A stretch of DNA of 21,528 nt from a virus, in the IMG/VR virus record IMGVR_UViG_3300049479_000160, positions 1 through 21,528 of that record. One strand, given 5' to 3'. A program made the translations under genes and the position numbers. Below are positions 3,122-21,528 of this stretch, piece by piece (within the stretch, counting starts at the first letter, position 1; every line of letters starts with the position of its first letter). The notes beneath the pieces are model-generated. The model did no database searches and was not told the origin of the DNA. It saw nothing but the letters and a program-made list of their open reading frames with translations.

Positions 3122-3945
3122 CTGGTCTCTAGTTTCTTAGAGGGGTGGACTATCTCTTCATCCCTGTAGGATGCCGGACGCTGAATCTGGTATTACGTAA
3201 CAAGATCGTGTTACACCCAGTAGTCTCTGCACCTTCCAATCACGCTTGATTGGCTTGGCTCAGGATTACCCTCGTCTTTACGTTAGGGCTTCCCTGAATT
3301 CATCCGGTTTGCACTCATCGATTGCTCGGTGAGGTGACAACGTTGAGCGTTCAGTTGAGGCGTGTTACACTTTGGAAACTTGTTTATAAACAACATGAAT
3401 CCAAAACTTGTTCCAGGATTTGGTAATCTTTACTTGACTGAGGATGGGAAAGCTTTTGAAAAACAACTTGATCCCGACAATCAAGAATATTTTCTTGAGA
3501 TCCCTATCAGTTCAACCAGTGTTTATGACCGTATCTCAGTTCTTGTAAACGGAAGAAGAAAAAGATTTCATCTTCATATCTTGATGGCTATTGCTTTTTT
3601 AGGATTAGATCTGCGTTCTCATGGAACGAGTAACTTTTCCTTACAAGTCGATCACAAAGATAATGACAAGAGGAATAATCGACTTGACAATCTTGAGATC
3701 GTTACCAAACAAGAAAATTTAACAAGGGCCTGGGAGAGCGGTTGTTATAAAAACAATGGCTTTGCCAGTAAAGGAAAACCGAAGAAGTCTTTGAGAAAGT
3801 TTTCTTCGGAAGATGTGACTACGATTAAATCTTTAAAAGACGCAGGTCTTTCTTACAGAAAGATTGCGGAAAAATTTAACTGTAATCACGGAGCTATTTA
3901 CCAAATCTTGAAAGGTCACACCTACCAGGATCTGAACTAGCTATC
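3122..3945 (-). ncRNA. Self-splicing group I intron in the capsid gene
   Basis: The full core can be drawn on the minus strand. P1: exon GTGTTCATT plus intron GAT pair with the guide at 3322-3311, with the splice-site U (3946) opposite G3319. P3: CCGGAT 3307-3302 with GTCCGG 3179-3174. P4: TCAGG 3297-3293 with CCTGA 3264-3260. P5: GCCCT 3289-3285 with AGGGT 3272-3268. P6a: CCAATC 3253-3248 with GATTGG 3241-3236. P7: GACTA 3225-3221 with TAGTC 3152-3148. P7.1: CTGG/CCAG (3220-3217, 3190-3187). P7.2: GTAAC/GTTAC (3214-3210, 3201-3197). P8: CATCC 3173-3169 with GGATG 3163-3159. P9: CTCTA 3142-3138 with TAGAG 3131-3127. The conserved blocks AATCCTGAGCCAAGCC, GGTGCAGAGACTA and AAGAGATAGTCC are the classical Q, R and S elements and closely resemble cyanobacterial tRNA-Leu introns. 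The P7.1/P7.2 insert is typical of subgroup IA. The terminal G is 3122, and only this 3' site is in phase, follows G and allows a short P10 (exon GA with guide UC). Confidence 0.9.
3395..3940 (+). CDS. HNH homing endonuclease, antisense inside the intron
   Basis: 181 residues from ATG 3395; an in-frame GTG at 3362 would add 11 residues but lies too close to the only purine-rich stretch. The N-terminus (KLVPGFGNLYLTEDGKAF) resembles NUMOD4 DNA-binding modules. The nuclease centre is VDHKDNDKRNNRLDNLEIVT (about residues 85-104 from this start), matching the HNH_3 pattern with the metal and catalytic His in VDH and Asn in the RLDN and later positions. The last 45 residues (SSEDVTTIKSLKDAGLSYRK onward) form a predicted helix-turn-helix for target recognition. 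Such enzymes cut intron-less alleles and spread the intron. Its base composition is more A/T-rich than the flanking capsid gene, consistent with separate acquisition. It lies on the strand opposite to the intron, so it needs its own promoter, which I cannot identify. Confidence 0.85.
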   Translation: MNPKLVPGFGNLYLTEDGKAFEKQLDPDNQEYFLEIPISSTSVYDRISVLVNGRRKRFHLHILMAIAFLGLDLRSHGTSNFSLQVDHKDNDKRNNRLDNLEIVTKQENLTRAWESGCYKNNGFASKGKPKKSLRKFSSEDVTTIKSLKDAGLSYRKIAEKFNCNHGAIYQILKGHTYQDLN

Positions 3946-4071: not shown

Positions 4072-5040
4072 TCACTCCATTACAAACAATTTGTTTGCAA
4101 CGGTTTGAGGTTGAGCCTGGTTCAGAACGCGCCAGGCATTTTGGGGATCACGATTCATGATCTCGCTGAAGTTGCCCCAGAAATTTTCTGGTGCCTGAGG
4201 AGCAGCAGCTGCTGGGGGAGCAGGGAATTGACCAATCTGAGGCTGACCAATTTGCTGGGTCGGATAACCGCGAGTCTCAAGTTGATCTTCGCTTTCGTAC
4301 ACGGGGTACGGACCTTCAGGACCAAAGAACTTGAGCGTGTAATCGCTCAGCACATCAGGATTGGTCAGGATCTCGTTGTAAGCCAGGTTTTCCTGGTGCT
4401 CATTTACAGCGAAATTGGCGTAACCCTTGATTGCATCAGCGGCGCGATTTCCCCACGCGACGGCGCTGTCCACCATCGCCTCGAGATTCAGGGCGTAGTT
4501 GTTCAGAATTGCTGGTGCCTCGATCCCGAACGCGTCCATCACCTGACGGCTCTCCTGGCTCATTCCTACCAGGTCCGCGATTTGCTCCAAGGATGGATTC
4601 GAGGAGGTTTGGGAATAATTGGGCGAGGATTCCTGGCTGGGAGACCAGGTCAGCGGAGCCGATTGTTGCGTAGCTGGGCTGCTGGGTTGTCCGTAATTGG
4701 CCGGGGTATACGCTGTCGGCGCTGGCGATTGTTGACCCTGGAACGGGGATTGGACTGGTGCGCTCAGCAGGTTCACCACCTTGTTGAACGCCGATTCCCA
4801 TGGATTCCCCGCCGATTCCGCCGGTTGGGATTGGGGGGCGTACTGAGTAGGGGCTGATTGGTAGCTGGGGATCGCCTGAGGTACCGCTTGGGGGTAGCTG
4901 GTACCCACCTGATAAGCCACTGGTGCCTGGGATTGCGCCATTTGAGCTGCTTGTGGAGCTGGTGCCACGTAGCTGCTCGGGGCGACGGCCACTGGTACTG
5001 GGCTCGTCTGTGGGATCGATTGGACGGTAGCGTCCTGCAT
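4072..5040 (-). CDS. Probable capsid scaffolding protein
   Basis: 322 residues. The start ATG at 5040 has a strong ribosome site (AAGGAGATGAGTT). The first 145 residues are low-complexity and rich in Gln, Pro, Ser and Ala with many Tyr, probably disordered. Residues about 148-235 are predicted helical (SLEQIADLVGMSQESRQVMD, then an Ala-rich helix), and a short C-terminal helix ends in FVME. A disordered N-terminus with helical C-terminus, placed between portal and capsid genes, is the usual arrangement for a scaffold that co-assembles with the capsid protein and is later removed. The first 605 nt overlap the portal frame on the same strand. The family is not recognised by sequence. Confidence 0.6.
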   Translation of the reverse strand: MQDATVQSIPQTSPVPVAVAPSSYVAPAPQAAQMAQSQAPVAYQVGTSYPQAVPQAIPSYQSAPTQYAPQSQPAESAGNPWESAFNKVVNLLSAPVQSPFQGQQSPAPTAYTPANYGQPSSPATQQSAPLTWSPSQESSPNYSQTSSNPSLEQIADLVGMSQESRQVMDAFGIEAPAILNNYALNLEAMVDSAVAWGNRAADAIKGYANFAVNEHQENLAYNEILTNPDVLSDYTLKFFGPEGPYPVYESEDQLETRGYPTQQIGQPQIGQFPAPPAAAAPQAPENFWGNFSEIMNRDPQNAWRVLNQAQPQTVANKLFVME

Positions 5041-6790
5041 AACTCATCTCCTTTTGTAAAGCTTCTAATGTGCGATATAGATACGGTGTGAGATCTAATC
5101 GCGGATCCGCAGCCATCGGTAGGTCCGGTGATTGCGGGTGGGGAGTTTGCATCATTCCCCCCACTAAGCGAGCGAACTGAGAGTATGCACCCTGCAATTC
5201 GTTCACCATTCTGAACGGGAACCCAGATAACATCTCGGCCCGTTCCTCATCCGTCTTAGACGGGAAGAGGTATTTCAGTGCCTCAATGCTATCAACACCT
5301 AACTCTTGAAGGTTGCGTACCACGATGGAGTTGTTAAGGATATCCTGAGTGGAATCCTCATAAACAGGCCCCAACCAACGCCATTGCATTGTTACGTCCC
5401 CATCGGGAATTAAACCAAGGACACCGGGAGGAATCTGTTGAGTACGCAGGCAAGCCATCATTAACTGCTTGACTTTTTCTTCGTACATCGACATGGCATC
5501 TTCGTAAGCAGCAATGTCTTCATCAGATGCTTCCTCTGGTAGTTCCAGGGGCTTTTCAAGGCCCGCAGCAGCAGCTAACGTCTCCCTAAACAGACGTTCC
5601 TCCTGGAAAATAATCAATTCAAGACAACGGCAAATACCATAGGTATAAAGAGCAATTGCCTTTTTCTTGGCAGTAGCAGAAACCCGACCGAACAAAGATT
5701 TGTATTCCGTCGCAGTTACACCAGCAGAGATAGACAATTCGTCAACACCACCAAGAGCAGTGCGAATTTCTTCTCGATATTGACGAGCAAAAGAATTTTG
5801 ATCACCAGTGATTGCATCTGGAACAATGTAACCAACGCGATCGTTTGGCTCCAGGTTTGCAATGATGCGTGGAACTCGAAGCTGACCGTCGACTCCTCGA
5901 TAAATAGGATCGGCCTTAAAACGAGACTGACTCAAAGGTCCTGCACCACCGAAACCAGAGTTTGCCGCAATAGAAGGACGCTGGACAACGGCTTCTCCAC
6001 CGGACTCCATCAGGTCTGTCTTGGGACGAGAAGAAAGAAGAGTTGGATTACCAAAAAACTGCACGTTCTTCCGCATGGTGCGGACCATTTCATCATGCGT
6101 GCAAATATGATTGGCAAGAGCATCAAACTCGCCCACACCCTCAGTTGAGAAACCCTTTGGATTATTGAAGATTTCTACGCAGGGAATAAAACCAAGTGTA
6201 TTTTTAAATGTTTTAGTTTTACCTGGAATCGCTTGGTAATTGGTATCAAATGAAATCTCACCTTCTGAGTGAGTTTCTTCGATTGTCTTACGTTTGATAG
6301 AAAGCCTGATATAACGCTTGATGCCGCCACGCCCCATGCTTGCAGGACCTGTAAGGCTATTAGCCTCAATGTCTTGTTGATAGCCAAACCCTTGACGAAT
6401 CTTGTAGCTATAGATGATTACAACTTCATCAAGCTCGCCATCAATGTTGTAAAAGGTACGATATTCGTGCTTACGAAAAAAGTAGAGCCGATAATTGTTT
6501 TTAGTAGGACGAATATAAAAAAGACCTTGACCATCACAAAGAAAATAATCCCAGATTGAATCAAGGCGTGTATCAATTTGATTGTATTTAATTACGCGAT
6601 CAATAAAGTCTTTGCGTTGATTTCCAAAGTTATCTTGTGCCGGAAAGAATTCGACGCCTTGTCGAATCCCAAATAATTTCATCTGCGCAAGATGAGCTGC
6701 AACGACGCCCGTATCAATGGCTGCCCCTCCATCTTTTTCGATGTAAGAGTCAATAATTTCTTTAAGCCTAGTCTTAGCGTCCGTTGCCAT
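4436..6790 (-). CDS. Portal protein
   Basis: 784 residues from ATG 6790. The dodecameric portal sits at one capsid vertex, docks the terminase and connects to the tail. The segment DFIDRVIKYNQIDTRLDSIW-DYFLCDGQGLFYIRP (residues 61-95), followed by FFRKHEYRTFYNIDGELDEV, looks like a portal wing/clip region; residues about 340-420 (GGVDELSISAGVTATEYKSL) look like the stem and crown side. It follows the large terminase and three small genes and precedes scaffold and capsid, as usual in phages. From residue about 584 the sequence becomes Ser/Thr/Gly/Pro-rich and ends in RRRVGKSRR; this part is encoded in the stretch shared with the scaffold gene. The assignment rests on size, order and pattern. 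Whether all 200 C-terminal residues are made is unknown. Confidence 0.75.
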   Translation of the reverse strand: MATDAKTRLKEIIDSYIEKDGGAAIDTGVVAAHLAQMKLFGIRQGVEFFPAQDNFGNQRKDFIDRVIKYNQIDTRLDSIWDYFLCDGQGLFYIRPTKNNYRLYFFRKHEYRTFYNIDGELDEVVIIYSYKIRQGFGYQQDIEANSLTGPASMGRGGIKRYIRLSIKRKTIEETHSEGEISFDTNYQAIPGKTKTFKNTLGFIPCVEIFNNPKGFSTEGVGEFDALANHICTHDEMVRTMRKNVQFFGNPTLLSSRPKTDLMESGGEAVVQRPSIAANSGFGGAGPLSQSRFKADPIYRGVDGQLRVPRIIANLEPNDRVGYIVPDAITGDQNSFARQYREEIRTALGGVDELSISAGVTATEYKSLFGRVSATAKKKAIALYTYGICRCLELIIFQEERLFRETLAAAAGLEKPLELPEEASDEDIAAYEDAMSMYEEKVKQLMMACLRTQQIPPGVLGLIPDGDVTMQWRWLGPVYEDSTQDILNNSIVVRNLQELGVDSIEALKYLFPSKTDEERAEMLSGFPFRMVNELQGAYSQFARLVGGMMQTPHPQSPDLPMAADPRLDLTPYLYRTLEALQKEMSYAGRYRPIDPTDEPSTSGRRPEQLRGTSSTSSSNGAIPGTSGLSGGYQLPPSGTSGDPQLPISPYSVRPPIPTGGIGGESMGIGVQQGGEPAERTSPIPVPGSTIASADSVYPGQLRTTQQPSYATIGSADLVSQPGILAQLFPNLLESILGANRGPGRNEPGEPSGDGRVRDRGTSNSEQLRPESRGDGGQRRRVGKSRR

Positions 6791-10817: not shown

Positions 10818-11714
10818 TCAAGAGAATGAGAATGATCCGATAAGTTGCTGATAAATAGAACCTTGGCTCTTAATTTTTGCCAACTCTTTCTCACCCTCGT
10901 TCTTCAGTTTTTGAGTTTCTTTGTCAATCTCTCCCTGAAGATTTGTCAAACCAGCACTGTAAAGGTACTTGCGCGTGTCACGAATATTTTGCTGTTGTTC
11001 TTCAATCTCAGCAGGCGTACCAGTAAAGGAGGCCCCAAAGTCAGGTGTCGTGACTTTAGTGCGACCTTCAAGACCTTCAGCGTACTGAGGCAGAAGATTA
11101 GAAGCGAAATTAAAAGTACGTTGCCCTGTCTTCTTACCTTTCTCGTCAACACCTTGTTTGCCAAACATGGTGTCATAATAATTGTCTAGATAGCTTTGAT
11201 TAAACTTATCTTGATATTCAGAACCTTTAACAAGAGAGTCTTTAAGGTCTTGAACAGAACTGTAATAACCTTGTTGGAAGCGCTCCAGAGCTTTGCCTTT
11301 TTCTTCTTCCGTGGCTTGGCGACCAAGTAATTCTTCGTACGCTGCTGATACTCCCGTGGCACGGCGTCCAGGAAGAAGTTCTTCTGTATAGATCTTTGTA
11401 AGATCTGCAATTTCCGACTCAGGGGGAGTTAAATCGTACTTCGCTGCATAATCACGAAGTTGGCCGGTTGCGTCACCATAAGTAATGAGACCCTGCCGAA
11501 GCTGAGATTCAATCCCAGATCTCAAACCCCCATAACCAGCTTGTGCTGAGGCTTTACGTGCTTGTTCTTTTGCTGCTGCTTCTGCTTTTTCATTTGCAGC
11601 GCGTTGTTCAGCAAGTGTTTCTTTTTGCTGTTGATATTGAAGATACTTCTCAAAAGTATCATCTTTTTCAATATTGGGAGCTTTGTATTCAACCCTAGTT
11701 CCACCACCGCCCAT
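10818..11714 (-). CDS. Unknown coiled-coil virion-type protein
   Basis: 298 residues, with AGGAG overlapping the upstream stop 8 nt before ATG 11714. It opens with MGGGGTRVEYKAPNIEKDD. Residues about 20-60 are a Gln/Glu/Ala-rich helix, the middle carries helical units (EELLGRQATEEEKGKALERF), and the last 60 residues form another coiled coil. The weakly repeated pattern around residues 125-165 resembles DUF4214-like helical repeats (YEELLGR, then FQQGYYSS), but this is tentative. It belongs to the run of large proteins before the terminase genes, probably internal virion or tail proteins. Confidence 0.6.
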   Translation of the reverse strand: MGGGGTRVEYKAPNIEKDDTFEKYLQYQQQKETLAEQRAANEKAEAAAKEQARKASAQAGYGGLRSGIESQLRQGLITYGDATGQLRDYAAKYDLTPPESEIADLTKIYTEELLPGRRATGVSAAYEELLGRQATEEEKGKALERFQQGYYSSVQDLKDSLVKGSEYQDKFNQSYLDNYYDTMFGKQGVDEKGKKTGQRTFNFASNLLPQYAEGLEGRTKVTTPDFGASFTGTPAEIEEQQQNIRDTRKYLYSAGLTNLQGEIDKETQKLKNEGEKELAKIKSQGSIYQQLIGSFSFS

Positions 11715-18651: not shown

Positions 18652-18873
18652 GTGCCAGGAATGGACGCTGGAACACGCCAAAAACGGGTCGAAGCTTTAG
18701 AGGCTATTAAAAACAAAGCATTAGAACGTGCGCAAGCAGGTGAAGATTCCCTTGCTGTTCGTGATTTTGTTACTTCGGCTAAAAAAGAACTAGCTTATGA
18801 GCTTCCAGATGAGGAAGCTTTTAAAAAAGCAATGAATGCAACCCTCGCATACAAAGCAAAGAAGGGAAAATAA
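18652..18873 (+). CDS. Small unknown protein, monocistronic
   Basis: 73 residues from GTG 18652, or 70 from ATG 18661, which has AGGA too close in front. The product is helical and charged, with DFVTSAKKELAYELPDEEAF near the C-terminus, which ends in YKAKKGK. No known motif. It is the first plus-strand gene and is closed off by a strong terminator, so it is expressed separately from the downstream small genes. The function is unknown. Confidence 0.65.
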   Translation: MPGMDAGTRQKRVEALEAIKNKALERAQAGEDSLAVRDFVTSAKKELAYELPDEEAFKKAMNATLAYKAKKGK

Positions 18874-18897
18874 TAAATTTTTTAAACTTTGAATATG

Positions 18898-18923
18898 GCC
18901 GGGGAAAAGACCCCGGCTTTTTT
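18898..18923 (+). terminator. Strong Rho-independent terminator
   Basis: GCCGGGG (18898-18904), loop AAAAGA, CCCCGGC (18911-18917), then six T (18918-18923). It lies 25 nt after the stop of the small gene and acts on the plus strand only. Confidence 0.95.
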
Positions 18924-19317
18924 GTCTAAATTCTTGGGCAAACTGTTGATTTTGCCTACAAAAGTACATTTATACCTTCAAAGTCAGGCCCTTTATAGCT
19001 CTAAATAGGGGATAAAATTACTTGACTGTTCTCTAACCACCCCGCCGAGTGGGAATGCGTAGGGAAAAAAAAGAAACTGGGGTATCGTCTATGATACACC
19101 GCCTAATTTTCCCGAGAAGAATGTCAGAATTCCCTGACAATTGCATTCTAACTCGCGCGGAACCTCCAAATCGCGCTCCCTGACTGGAGTTTGCAGAAGC
19201 AGACTGTTGTTCTAAGGGAGCTCGGGATAATACCCGAGACAGAAGGTCGGGATTAGAGAGTTAAGTGTCGTCGAGCTGGACGTTAAACGTAGCGTTGCTC
19301 AATTGCATTCAACACCA
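18924..19317 (+). other. Non-coding stretch: probable promoter and structured leader
   Basis: No convincing gene lies here. A possible promoter is TTGATT (18946-18951) with TTTATA (18969-18974) at 17-nt spacing, a modest match. Farther on several hairpins can form: GTATC/GATAC (19082-19086, 19093-19097), TGTCAG/CTGACA (19122-19127, 19134-19139), CTCC/GGAG (19176-19179, 19185-19188) and CTCGGG/CCCGAG (19221-19226, 19233-19238), the last with an ATAATA loop. Together they suggest a long structured 5' leader or a small RNA ahead of the small-gene array. No tRNA, and no copy of the T-loop element, is visible here. Confidence 0.45.
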
Positions 19318-19563
19318 ATGAACAAGACCAACAAGCTTGCACTGGAAGCCAAAGCCAAAGCAGAAGAGATGGGATGGGAAGCTCGGGTTCAATTGGACCA
19401 GAGCGACGTTCTCGACATGGCAACTGTCGTTGCCTGGAAGAAGGGCGCAACAGATGATAGCCCAGCTCGTTACATCCGGTTCACAGAAGAACGGGAATCA
19501 ATTAGAGGCTGGGTTCCGGTCAAGCACGCAATGATCAAGTTGGACTATTGCAACTGCTACTGA
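19318..19563 (+). CDS. Unknown 81-residue protein, first gene of the small-gene array
   Basis: ATG 19318 follows CAACACCA and has no Shine-Dalgarno site; an in-frame TTG at 19303 also lacks one. The product begins MNKTNKLALEAKAKAEEMGW and contains an alternating hydrophobic/charged beta-type middle (VVAWKKGATDDSPARYIRFT) with a Cys-rich end (YCNCY). No family is recognised. Its stop codon falls inside the closing helix of the first T-loop RNA element. Confidence 0.7.
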   Translation: MNKTNKLALEAKAKAEEMGWEARVQLDQSDVLDMATVVAWKKGATDDSPARYIRFTEERESIRGWVPVKHAMIKLDYCNCY

Positions 19564-19628
19564 TAGCTGGTGCGAAGGGAGGTTCGATTCCTCCCATCAG
19601 ATTTGCCTCCAGCGGAGATAGGCACCGC
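19560..19628 (+). ncRNA. T-loop RNA element, copy 1
   Basis: Closing helix: CTGAT (19560-19564) with ATCAG (19596-19600). T-arm: GGGAGG (19577-19582) with CCTCCC (19590-19595) around a canonical tRNA T-loop, TTCGATT. The intermediate 12 nt form at most a 2-bp hairpin, so the second arm is degenerate here. Module: TGCCT (19604-19608) with AGGCA (19620-19624), or GCGG (19612-19615) with CCGC (19625-19628). An AGGAGA ribosome site and the next ATG follow. Confidence 0.75.
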
Positions 19629-19644
19629 ACCACAGGAGATCCCC

Positions 19645-19785
19645 ATGGGAATCCGTAAGTCACTTGCTGCTGGTCTGATCGTCGCTGCCAATGCAGTAGC
19701 TAAGGACCAGAGCAAGGAGAAGGCGCAGAGATGGGTGCGTGATGCACGCATCAAACTCGCCAAGGCTATTGAGCCTAAAGGTTGA
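19645..19785 (+). CDS. Unknown 46-residue basic protein
   Basis: ATG 19645 with AGGAGA 6 nt upstream, so the longer open frame into the RNA element is not the start. The product begins MGIRKSLAAGLIVAANAVAK and continues as a Lys/Arg-rich amphipathic helix. One short hydrophobic helix (residues 6-18) is followed by a positively charged one. The function is unknown; very small phage proteins of this type often modulate host enzymes, but nothing here shows that. Confidence 0.65.
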   Translation: MGIRKSLAAGLIVAANAVAKDQSKEKAQRWVRDARIKLAKAIEPKG

Positions 19786-19853
19786 TCCGTTAAAGCGGTT
19801 CCCAGGGTGCAAACCCCTGGGCTTCCATTGCCCTCAGCAGAGATGGGCACTGC
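19780..19853 (+). ncRNA. T-loop RNA element, copy 2
   Basis: Closing helix: GGTTG (19780-19784) with CTTCC (19822-19826), which keeps three pairs and two U-U mismatches. First arm: ATCCG (19785-19789), loop TTAAAG, CGGTT (19796-19800). T-arm: CCCAGGG (19801-19807) with CCCTGGG (19815-19821), loop TGCAAAC. Module: TGCCC/GGGCA (19829-19833, 19845-19849) or GCAG/CTGC (19837-19840, 19850-19853). The changes to TGCCC/GGGCA and GCAG/CTGC are both compensated. Confidence 0.75.
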
Positions 19854-19869
19854 ACACACGGAGACTACC

Positions 19870-20043
19870 GTGATCATCCACTACACCCTGGCTACTGACA
19901 CTGCTGTGTATCAGTTCCAGGTGAACCAGGATAAAGCACGTGTTACCCGCTGGGTCCTTAAGGGCCAGAAGGGAGCACATGCTTCGACAACAATGTCGAC
20001 TGAGATGGCACGCAAGTTTGCGCGTCAACTACAGACCAAGTGA
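19870..20043 (+). CDS. Unknown 57-residue protein
   Basis: GTG 19870 with GGAG 6 nt upstream; this start places the frame just after the RNA element. The product begins MIIHYTLATDTAVYQFQVNQ and has an N-terminal beta hairpin pattern followed by a basic helical end (MARKFARQLQTK). No membrane segment, no family recognised. The last codons take part in the closing helix of the next RNA element. Confidence 0.65.
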   Translation: MIIHYTLATDTAVYQFQVNQDKARVTRWVLKGQKGAHASTTMSTEMARKFARQLQTK

Positions 20044-20110
20044 GTCATAGCTCCCATGCCAGGTGCAATGCCTGGCTTTGGTCATTACCCACAGCGGAGA
20101 TGGGTACCGC
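20034..20110 (+). ncRNA. T-loop RNA element, copy 3
   Basis: Closing helix: GACCAA (20034-20039) with TTGGTC (20078-20083), overlapping the upstream stop codon region. First arm: GTGAG (20040-20044), loop TCATAG, CTCCC (20051-20055), with one U-C mismatch. T-arm: GCCAGG (20058-20063) with CCTGGC (20071-20076), loop TGCAATG. Module: TACCC/GGGTA (20086-20090, 20102-20106) or GCGG/CCGC (20094-20097, 20107-20110). The primary sequence of the first arm differs from copies 2, 4 and 5 but the pairing is kept. Confidence 0.75.
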
Positions 20111-20130
20111 ATACACCACACGACACCACC

Positions 20131-20319
20131 GTGATCAAGCCTGAGCACGTCTTTGCATCAGTCATCGTCTGGTCATTTGGCCTCGGCATTCTTGCTGGGC
20201 CTGTTGCTGCGTACTTCATTGATAAGGCAACTGCCGAACAATGCCGTACACATGCATGGCCCAAGGAGGCAGACCAGATCCACAGAGACTGGTGCATTAC
20301 TAACGGCTACGACATCTAG
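20131..20319 (+). CDS. Small single-pass membrane protein
   Basis: 62 residues from GTG 20131. No Shine-Dalgarno site is present; the start follows CACACGACACCACC. One transmembrane helix spans about residues 8-30 (ASVIVWSFGLGILAGPVAAY), followed by a polar tail with two Cys (EQCRTHAWPKEADQIHRDWC). It could be an envelope-located accessory protein. The function is unknown. Confidence 0.7.
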   Translation: MIKPEHVFASVIVWSFGLGILAGPVAAYFIDKATAEQCRTHAWPKEADQIHRDWCITNGYDI

Positions 20320-20391
20320 CTGATCCGTCTAAGCGGGTTGGGAGGTGCAAACCCTCCCATAGCTATTGCCTCCGGCGGAGATAGGCACCGC
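20317..20391 (+). ncRNA. T-loop RNA element, copy 4
   Basis: Closing helix: TAGCT (20317-20321, containing the upstream stop codon) with AGCTA (20361-20365). First arm: ATCCG (20323-20327), loop TCTAAG, CGGGT (20334-20338). T-arm: TGGGAGG (20339-20345) with CCTCCCA (20353-20359), loop TGCAAAC. The arms abut with at most one unpaired base at each junction. Module: TGCCT/AGGCA (20367-20371, 20383-20387) or GCGG/CCGC (20375-20378, 20388-20391). Confidence 0.8.
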
Positions 20392-20409
20392 ACACGACAG
20401 GAGTTTCCT

Positions 20410-20604
20410 GTGGACCAAGCTCTTGCGCACACTCTTGAAGTGCTGATCTCACTTCGTGAGGCAGCAATTGAAGATTGTTGTCAGAGAATGGTTAGCCATG
20501 AGATCTGCATGGCTGAAATGGTTGACCGTTTCATTGCGGCTAATGATCCGAATGGTGATATCACCAGGAAGGTTTATCGCTCAATGTTTAGGTCAGACGA
20601 CTAA
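20410..20604 (+). CDS. Unknown 64-residue acidic helical protein
   Basis: GTG 20410 with AGGAG upstream (20399-20403). The product begins MDQALAHTLEVLISLREAAI and is almost entirely helical, with two adjacent Cys (EDCCQRM) and an acidic C-terminus (FRSDD). It could dimerise through the amphipathic helix. No family recognised; part of the same array of small genes. Confidence 0.65.
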   Translation: MDQALAHTLEVLISLREAAIEDCCQRMVSHEICMAEMVDRFIAANDPNGDITRKVYRSMFRSDD

Positions 20605-20606
20605 TC

Positions 20607-20675
20607 AGCTGATCCGTTAAAGCGGGAGGCTAGGTGCAAACCCTAGCCCAGTTATTGCCACCCACCGAGGGTGGC
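20607..20675 (+). ncRNA. T-loop RNA element, copy 5 (variant 3' module)
   Basis: Closing helix: AGCTG (20607-20611) with CAGTT (20649-20653). First arm: TCCG (20613-20616), loop TTAAAG, CGGG (20623-20626). T-arm: GGCTAGG (20628-20634) with CCTAGCC (20642-20648), loop TGCAAAC. The two-way module of the other copies is replaced by one simple hairpin, GCCACCC/GGGTGGC (20657-20663, 20669-20675). The following ATG has no Shine-Dalgarno site. Confidence 0.75.
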
Positions 20676-20695
20676 TAACAGATCAACACCACACC

Positions 20696-20929
20696 ATGAT
20701 GATCTATCAACCCAAGTGCGACACTCTGTACCGCGTCACGTGGTACGGAGGTGAAAGCACCATGCTTCGCTTCGAGAAGAAGATTGCTGGCGAATGGAAA
20801 GAACTATCTGTCCAGACGCTAATGCATGGTATTCCTACAGGTACCAAGGAGTTGTACCAGGAGATGCAGGACGTTTATAACTACGGCATCACCATGGAAC
20901 AAGACAATCTCGTTGGAACAATCTTCTGA
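20696..20929 (+). CDS. Unknown 77-residue protein
   Basis: ATG 20696 (or ATG 20699), preceded by AACACCACACC without a ribosome site. Residues 1-45 are beta-rich with aromatic residues (YQPKCDTLYRVTWYGGESTM), followed by a short helix (KELYQEMQDVYNY). No membrane segment. Two nucleotides separate its stop from the next start. No family recognised. Confidence 0.7.
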   Translation: MMIYQPKCDTLYRVTWYGGESTMLRFEKKIAGEWKELSVQTLMHGIPTGTKELYQEMQDVYNYGITMEQDNLVGTIF

Positions 20930-20931
20930 TC

Positions 20932-21135
20932 ATGACTGACAATCACTTCCTTGACTCCTGTGTTGCTCTTGTACTTGGCACTGGTATTGGCTTACTCCTA
21001 TCTGTTGGAGCACAGAAAGTTCTCAACAAACACTACAAAGCCACGTGCCATGACCAACCAGGACATAACCTGATCTACACCAAGGGATTCCTTGGTGATA
21101 CGTACTACTGCATCAACAGTAAGTACATGAACTGA
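20932..21135 (+). CDS. Small single-pass membrane protein
   Basis: 67 residues from ATG 20932, 2 nt after the previous stop, so probably translationally coupled. A hydrophobic helix covers residues about 8-28 (SCVALVLGTGIGLLLSVGAQ), followed by a polar domain with two Cys that could pair (TCHDQ and YYCIN). It resembles the earlier membrane gene in layout (N-terminal helix, Cys-containing tail) but not in sequence. The function is unknown. Confidence 0.7.
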   Translation: MTDNHFLDSCVALVLGTGIGLLLSVGAQKVLNKHYKATCHDQPGHNLIYTKGFLGDTYYCINSKYMN

Positions 21136-21136
21136 T

Positions 21137-21197
21137 CTCTGCACTTAACCCTTCTCATCTATGTGATGAGTGGGTTTTCTGCAGAGTTCTCTCTGCA
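21137..21197 (+). promoter_or_regulatory. CTTAACCC/GGGTTTTC hairpin element A, with competing stem
   Basis: Starting just after a stop codon: outer stem CTCTGCA (21137-21143) with TGCAGAG (21180-21186), AACCC (21147-21151) with GGGTT (21173-21177), and inner stem CTCATC/GATGAG. The bases CTTAACCCTT and TGGGTTTTC are identical in element B while both stems differ. A second CTCTGCA (21191-21197) can pair with the same TGCAGAG, so two folds compete. The GGGTTTTCT end looks like a weak terminator. Confidence 0.65.
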
Positions 21198-21225
21198 CTA
21201 CACCACACGACACCAAGTTAGTTCT

Positions 21226-21465
21226 ATGAACTACCAAGCTGTTGAACATCTCCTCACCCAGGATGCTCGTCTCCTGGCACGTAGAGATTCTCCTGTCATT
21301 GACAAAGAGATTGAAGCTGACCGTCAGGCAGCACTCGATCTTTTCTTCCAATGGCAGGATGGTATGGCTCAGTTTCAAGACCTGATGCCATTCGTTGTTA
21401 TTCTCCAGAAGAAGGTAGATCTCAATCGAGATCTCATTCGTTGGGAGCGACGCAACGAAGACTGA
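21226..21465 (+). CDS. Unknown 79-residue helical protein
   Basis: ATG 21226 is chosen because the frame upstream runs back into the hairpin element; the leader (CACCACACGACACCAAG) has no Shine-Dalgarno site. The product begins MNYQAVEHLLTQDARLLARR and is predicted to be all-helical, with an aromatic-rich centre (LDLFFQWQDGMAQFQDL) and a charged end (RWERRNED). No family recognised. Hairpin element B begins right after its stop. Confidence 0.65.
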   Translation: MNYQAVEHLLTQDARLLARRDSPVIDKEIEADRQAALDLFFQWQDGMAQFQDLMPFVVILQKKVDLNRDLIRWERRNED

Positions 21466-21466
21466 T

Positions 21467-21525
21467 TCCTGTACTTAACCCTTCCGTCAGTACATATGTA
21501 CTACGACGGTGGGTTTTCTACAGGA
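21467..21525 (+). promoter_or_regulatory. CTTAACCC/GGGTTTTC hairpin element B
   Basis: Outer stem TCCTGTA (21467-21473) with TACAGGA (21519-21525), AACCC (21477-21481) with GGGTT (21511-21515), inner stem CCGTC (21484-21488) with GACGG (21505-21509), capped by the palindrome AGTACATATGTACT. Compared with element A, outer and inner stems change on both sides while the CTTAACCCTT and TGGGTTTTC strands stay fixed. The window ends 3 nt later, so any competing downstream strand is not visible. Confidence 0.65.
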
Positions 21526-21528
21526 CTT

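Follow-up and report, generated by a model that had tools for sequence, protein, structure and literature searches.

The window, that is, the whole 21.5-kb stretch of a virus record analysed here, carries head and packaging genes (terminase, virion protein) on its minus strand and an array of small ORFs on its plus strand, over which the closest cultured match is Synechococcus phage S-EIV1. The array includes ORFs of 81 aa (19318-19563, with no family match), 46 aa (19645-19785), 57 aa (19870-20043), 62 aa (20131-20319), 64 aa (20410-20604) and 77 aa (20696-20929), and searches of its small ORFs against Pfam and PHROGs gave no confident function. Five gaps between these ORFs (19.56-20.66 kb) share one RNA fold, and all five tandem copies that a first-pass annotation had placed there are present. 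The stop codon of the upstream ORF falls within copies 1, 2 and 3, overlaps the edge of copy 4 and precedes copy 5 by 2 nt, while the 77-aa ORF lies 3' of copy 5. Within the window, model R1 matched copies 2, 4 and 5 (E 7e-22 to 3e-25) and only the T-arm of copy 3, and a structure scan recovered copy 1 and the whole of copy 3. A strict structural scan counted four elements in the window but zero both on its opposite strand and in 10 shuffles.

Copy 1 (19560-19603, plus strand, as are all copies), seen in the sequence, in the structure scan and in the MFE fold of the isolated 43-mer, consists of a closing helix (19560-19564/19596-19600) that contains the upstream TGA (19561-19563), a first arm (19566-19573) with a TGGT loop, and a T-stem (19577-19582/19590-19595) capped by the T-loop TTCGATT (19583-19589). 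This copy had been described as degenerate; it is more than that, namely the canonical variant, in which a UUCGAUU T-loop goes together with a UGGU first loop and which also occurs in cyanophage S-TIP37 and others. Copy 2 (19780-19829; R1 64.5 bits, E 6.8e-22) has a weak closing helix (GGTTG/CTTCC) with the TGA at 19783-19785, a first arm CCG-TTAAAG-CGG and a T-stem CCCAGGG/CCCTGGG (19801-19807/19815-19821) with the loop TGCAAAC. Copy 3 (20034-20086), identified by sequence, folding and the structure scan, closes with GACCAA/TTGGTC around a first arm GAG-TCATAG-CTC and a T-stem GCCAGG/CCTGGC with the loop TGCAATG; the upstream TGA is at 20041-20043, and the discriminator A20084 is followed by TT. 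Copy 4 (20318-20367; R1 70.7 bits, E 2.8e-24) follows the TAG at 20317-20319 and combines the closing helix AGCT(G)/(T)AGCT and first arm CCG-TCTAAG-CGG with a T-stem TGGGAGG/CCTCCCA (20339-20345/20353-20359), loop TGCAAAC and discriminator A20365 plus TT. Likewise, copy 5 (20607-20656; R1 73.3 bits, E 3.0e-25), downstream of the TAA at 20602-20604, closes with AGCTG/CAGTT and has a first arm CCG-TTAAAG-CGG, a T-stem GGCTAGG/CCTAGCC (20628-20634/20642-20648), the loop TGCAAAC and discriminator A20654 plus TT.

Directly after the UU lies a conserved hairpin that the first-pass annotation missed, so that the unit, with discriminator, UU and hairpin, reaches about 25-30 nt further than had been noted. 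For copy 1, this 3' module (19602-19632) consists of a U-run and the hairpin TGCCTCCAGCGGAGATAGGCA with an alternative GCGG/CCGC pairing, as judged from the direct repeat family D2 and from related loci compared by eye. Sequence, repeats and folding define the modules of copy 2 (19827-19858; discriminator A19827, UU and hairpin TTGCCCTCAGCAGAGATGGGCACTGCA) and copy 3 (20085-20115; TTACCCACAGCGGAGATGGGTACCGCA, with TACC/GGTA in place of TGCC/GGCA), a direct repeat defines that of copy 4 (20366-20396; TTGCCTCCGGCGGAGATAGGCACCGCA), and sequence and folding define that of copy 5 (20655-20677; TT and the hairpin GCCACCC-ACCGA-GGGTGGC). In several copies both the GCGG/CCGC and the TGCC/GGCA pairings are supported by eye, which would give an H-type pseudoknot, but their simultaneous formation is doubtful because the third loop would have zero length. 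In freshwater arrays the hairpin after the UU is of GCC...GGC types, and another marine group has CCCUC...GAGGG; T7-like cyanophages carry a longer conserved leader at this place, ahead of the major capsid gene.

The element recurs in more than 100 viral contigs, and a relaxed pattern found it in at least 119 stretches of IMG/VR; a scan of freshwater sequences with a TTCRA pattern gave no matches. Among cultured phages it occurs in S-EIV1 (two copies), P-SSP7 (one), S-SBP1 (two, of which the early copy sits exactly at the gp02 stop) and P-SSP3. The same relaxed pattern hit 10 loci in the cellular genomes of 84,980 species. By their sequence and score, only the one on a cyanobacterial MAG contig (L147) is credible, and the others look like chance matches. 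The element is thus essentially absent from cellular genomes. Of the 139 contexts in A2, mostly copies from freshwater arrays, 100 have the upstream stop codon exactly inside the closing helix; some freshwater copies (e.g., L009 and L088) have no obvious upstream ORF.

The first-pass annotation had named the lack of covariation in homologues as the outcome that would count against a conserved fold; covariation is strong. Across 25 diverse homologues aligned to the three-helix hand structure, 97.3% of cells pair compared with 73.6% in shuffles, sliding the partners by 1-3 columns lowers pairing to 31-52%, and the covariation score is 0.68 against 0.20 in the comparison. In line with these results, 97.0% of cells are paired among 127 distinct model matches, which contain 473 double-change cells versus 135 in shuffles (0 of 500 shuffles reached as many), and 13 of 15 pairs are altered on both sides. 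These include pairs of the first arm (UCG/CGA, CAG/CUG, CUG/CAG), which is variable overall, CCG/CGG and GAG/CUC also occurring. The patterns used to fetch homologues fixed part of the first arm and the T-loop, so the fixed letters say nothing about conservation; no such constraint applied to the closing helix or to the five outer pairs of the T-stem. The structure is kept by selection at the RNA level.

Several properties show how far this fold resembles tRNA. Closing helix and T-stem had been said to total 12 bp in copies 2-5, which does not strictly hold for copy 2, whose closing helix (GGUUG/CUUCC) contains two U.U mismatches, but 12 bp is the mode among 133 homologues (77, followed by 11 bp in 28). 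The acceptor-like helix contributes about 5 bp to this length and the T-arm 7 bp. In this set of homologues each of the 12 layers pairs at 0.78-1.0, the outermost being the least conserved (0.78), whereas a 13th layer pairs at 0.17 against 0.22 expected; the element thus has the 12-bp acceptor/T-stem stack of tRNA (RF00005). The stack ends in a discriminator, A in 114 of 133 homologues, followed by UU in 133/133 and by CCA in 0/133, as in substrates of RNase Z. The elbow contacts 19-56 and 18-55 are supported by covariation: the last two bases of the first-arm loop and T-loop bases 55-56 read AG/GC in 158 copies, GG/TC in six, CG/GC in four, GA/TT in two and CA/GT in two, a table that leaves out about a dozen copies whose first arm is shaped differently and whose rare combinations, A19-U56 included, stem from few independent sequences. 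Among parsed copies with the standard first-arm shape, G19-C56 alternates with A19-U56, U55 accompanies G18, and neither G19-U56 nor A19-C56 occurs. Thus, the element shares with tRNA the stack, the T-loop, the D-loop/T-loop contacts and the discriminator, but differs in its short first arm and in having only a closing helix, that one arm and a T-arm (A1/A2), without an anticodon arm with a 7-nt loop. Between 18850 and 21528 of the window no copy matches RF00005, even at E up to 10, and ARAGORN reports no tRNA in the window; the window copies are therefore not tRNAs. Rfam searches at gathering and at permissive thresholds gave no family for the element, plant virus TLS included, and those of 18850-21528 at E up to 10 bear out the initial impression that it corresponds to no described riboswitch or phage RNA. 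Likewise, a literature search covering few subscription papers found no description of it.

The capsid gene of T7-like cyanophages offers a slot in which the element can be compared with its substitutes. With the conserved capsid leader CCGTCNNGACGGTGGGATAGACCACA as an independent bait, the module immediately 5' of it proved to be a mimic with a TGCRA T-loop in 50 cases, a mimic with a TTCRA T-loop in 17, an ARAGORN tRNA in two and a different hairpin in 38 plus most of 20 cases classed as other. Because this hairpin, which has the loop YACCTCRRWGTMGGA and lacks a T-loop, often occupies the slot, the slot does not strictly depend on a tRNA-like fold. In cyanophage NATL1A-7 the slot holds a real tRNA-Gly(TCC), according to its GenBank annotation, ARAGORN and Rfam (70.5 bits). 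A second scan for TTCRA loops retrieved 65 distinct leaders, among them 10 ARAGORN tRNAs, of which nine are tRNA-Gly and the tenth, a different one, has a damaged anticodon arm, and eight tRNA-Gly-like forms without a normal D-arm, three of which pass the Rfam tRNA cut-off, counts that are not frequencies because the bait selects TTCRA forms. These tRNAs and D-arm-poor forms all join TTGG after a discriminator T, whereas the mimics mostly do so after A, and in T7-like cyanophages mimic, real tRNA and other hairpin all share one UU junction with the downstream leader. The slot tRNA-Gly genes lack an encoded CCA, which is present in five phage tRNA-Leu genes elsewhere. Rfam matches at the capsid-leader loci searched were limited to Glutamine-II, real or near-real tRNAs, a group I intron, one abiF and chance-level matches. 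The forms found, namely tRNA-Gly, D-arm-poor tRNA-Gly, a mimic with an extra arm and the minimal mimic, would form a series pointing to a possible evolutionary route.

The two classes differ on their 5' side. In tRNA-class modules a hairpin stands next to the tRNA on its 5' side: the 40 nt there fold at a median of -10.6 kcal/mol (z -3.3), and the upstream stop is often found beyond this hairpin, at a distance of 30-36 nt. By contrast, the same region of 37 marine mimic slots has no hairpin (median -5.0, z -0.1), a difference whose p = 2e-7 overstates independence because the leaders are related. In both, the capsid start lies more than 100 nt downstream of the slot, past further structure.

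The tRNA-likeness noted at the outset is borne out by the 12-bp ruler, the elbow covariation and the replacement of the element by real tRNAs in the same slot; judged from these comparisons of sequence, the element is a genuine tRNA mimic. That mimic and real tRNA share a slot suggests that viral messages are divided by the tRNA-cutting enzymes of the cell. We favor, with a probability of roughly 0.6, tRNA-like punctuation of polycistronic cyanophage mRNA in which the cut is most likely made at the 3' edge, by RNase Z. Host tRNA-processing enzymes would recognise the element and RNase Z would cleave after the discriminator. The upstream mRNA would then retain its stop codon and end in a tRNA-like cap that shields it from 3' exonucleases, and the 5' end newly made on the downstream mRNA would be protected by a hairpin lying two nucleotides further on. 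A cut at the 3' edge only best explains the mimic because the 3' junction is shared, the stop codon lies in the 5' strand and no hairpin stands upstream. RNase Z would be the natural enzyme since it exists in cyanobacteria (PMC10989914) and is needed there, 51 of 55 tRNAs in one cyanobacterial genome being without an encoded CCA. Where the slot holds a real tRNA, its maturation implies RNase P as well as a 3' enzyme; RNase P would also cut 5' of the tRNA, and the separate upstream hairpin would guard the 3' end of the remaining message. Counting against this explanation, full-leader MFE folds of copies 1, 2 and 5 favor other pairings over the closing helix; the weak closing helix of copy 2, the hairpin without a T-loop in many capsid slots and the freshwater copies with no obvious ORF before them also speak against it.

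The conserved UU can be read differently. As a scaffold, the fold might present the A-UU linker to RNase E, and its tRNA shape would do no more than stabilise the 3' end of the upstream message. The invariance of the UU and the ability of non-tRNA hairpins to replace the element agree with this idea, and RNase E is a real alternative because its sites in Synechocystis are enriched for U at +1/+2, which the UU suits about as well as it suits RNase Z, and host rne is induced by P-SSP7 (PMC10989914). However, the linker is only about 3 nt long and lies between two helices, and the 12-bp ruler, the elbow covariation and the replacement by real CCA-less tRNAs would be left unexplained; we thus regard cleavage by RNase E as unlikely.

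Bacterial RNase P reads the 12-bp stack and elbow of pre-tRNA, both of which the element has, and the tRNAs that occupy this slot have to be substrates of RNase P. It is conceivable, then, that RNase P cuts the mimic at the 5' edge of its stack, on or beside the stop codon. Such a cut would deprive the upstream message of its stop codon, leaving a non-stop mRNA in the 100 of 139 contexts described above, mimic slots lack the 5' hairpin found at real-tRNA slots, and the outermost pair is the least conserved of the stack, making this quite improbable. Accordingly, of the earlier proposal of a processing site cutting at stop codons, the processing site is upheld, indirectly, and the cut at the stop codon is the less likely part. 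The other function proposed there, a ligand-binding leader, finds no support, and a riboswitch was rejected for want of a link to gene function and of a ligand-type conserved core beyond the elbow positions.

At the DNA level, the element might be a cassette junction that promotes recombination and shuffling of small genes. Integron attC cassettes and the T4-type mobile regulatory cassettes (PeSL) are such repeated structured units between small shuffled genes. With flanking genes clustered by their C-termini and element-derived translation left out, one upstream family in freshwater arrays, seen 13 times, is followed across the element by nine different families, and one downstream family, seen seven times, is preceded by seven; neighbors are therefore shuffled across the repeat, as at attC and PeSL sites, which fits recombination between repeats. 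Yet the compensatory changes preserve RNA pairing of a tRNA fold, a constraint unnecessary for homology-driven recombination; moreover, the gene downstream of the capsid slot is fixed, real tRNAs take the element's place at the same RNA junction, and shuffling can be a by-product of repeats. We consider a cassette function very unlikely. Least probable of all is a role in translation, in which re-initiation would be coupled to the stop codon or the element, as an IRES-like tRNA mimic, would load the small gene that follows. Although the array copies are tRNA-shaped, lie between a stop codon and the next start and have a stop of fixed position in most contexts, the capsid start is distant, the stop of many tRNA-class slots lies beyond the upstream hairpin, and real tRNAs do not suit re-initiation.

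Punctuation by an RNase Z substrate has parallels in known systems. As in the tRNA punctuation of animal mitochondria and bacterial tRNA-mRNA cotranscripts, tRNA-shaped RNAs lie between genes on one transcript, message release would be carried out by tRNA-processing enzymes, and some slots hold genuine tRNA. Unlike there, the units are mostly anticodon-less mimics of about 45-50 nt in a DNA phage, the stop codon of most array copies lies within the acceptor-like helix, and a dedicated 5' hairpin would serve the next message. MALAT1/mascRNA is a non-tRNA RNA that mimics tRNA and uses tRNA-processing enzymes; the element shares such mimicry with it and with plant virus TLS, but is intergenic and often tandem rather than at the 3' end of a genome or transcript, and has no anticodon arm, CCA or Rfam match. 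The intercistronic RNase III sites of T7 are processing signals between genes that give structured message ends, as would be the case here, also in T7-like phages. An RNase III site of the T7 type was rejected, as the fold is not a long near-continuous duplex but a tRNA-like three-way junction of 3-7-bp helices with an elbow.

These RNA elements thus make up a new family, one that belongs to the known concept of tRNA-like processing signals and is unusual for phages. The more inclusive proposal, to which we give slightly less than even odds, is that a family of tRNA mimics not described before, which lack an anticodon, can be exchanged for genuine tRNAs and are linked to them by intermediates that suggest an evolutionary route, serves as a general intercistronic punctuation of cyanophages in which host RNase Z is recruited and messages are split and capped. 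We know of no earlier tRNA-mimic punctuation system in bacteriophages; if true, this would be the first, and the bacterial-virus counterpart of mitochondrial tRNA punctuation. The capsid slot shows that RNA structures and real tRNAs can swap, and the element would offer a compact, portable means of probing the substrate needs of RNase Z and RNase P. Since it lies directly upstream of the major capsid gene in the standard laboratory cyanophages P-SSP7, S-SBP1 and S-TIP37, it would help explain message boundaries and capsid-gene expression in marine T7-like cyanophages.

In the capsid leaders of several related loci (L153, L155-L157, L160, L163 and others), the slot otherwise occupied by the tRNA mimic is filled by a different hairpin, with a stem of ~10 bp and a conserved YACCTCRRWGTMGGA loop, which Rfam matched in none of the loci searched. 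Glutamine-II riboswitches are present in the T7-like cyanophage loci L042, L096, L112, L153, L154, L155, L191, L203 and L284; several of them lie shortly before a small gene with a YRG motif, which in turn precedes the slot. Additionally, the capsid slot of locus L281 holds a tRNA with an abiF RNA immediately on its 5' side (3901-3937, minus strand; Rfam 47.8 bits).

A second stop-proximal structured repeat lies at 21131-21190 and 21461-21523 of the window and at about 4780-4825 of the related locus L038. It consists of TGATYYCTGYACTTAACCC, a hairpin and then GGGTTTTCTRCAGR, and its ends (CTGCA/TGCAG versus CTGTA/TACAG) show apparent covariation. Also recurrent is an (A)CGTC..GACG hairpin followed by TTAAMCGTAGC (19255-19300 of the window; also in L009, L063 and L088), which occurs both as the first array gene's leader and beside some of the mimic copies. 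Elsewhere in the window, a group I intron (3126-3367, minus strand; Rfam 90.7 bits) is adjoined by a plus-strand ORF (3362-3940) that looks like an HNH-type endonuclease.

Other motifs border phage tRNA genes. An RNA-like repeated motif with the 3' end GTRTAAGTCC(C)A, found in S-EIV1, the closest cultured match over the array (L038, about 6023-6065 and 6714-6775), also lies immediately 5' of the phage tRNA-Leu genes of L048, L055, L066, L113 and L019. Likewise, the phage tRNA-Ala gene of L196 carries directly on its 5' side an element with a TGCAATT T-arm (about 11620-11645, minus strand).
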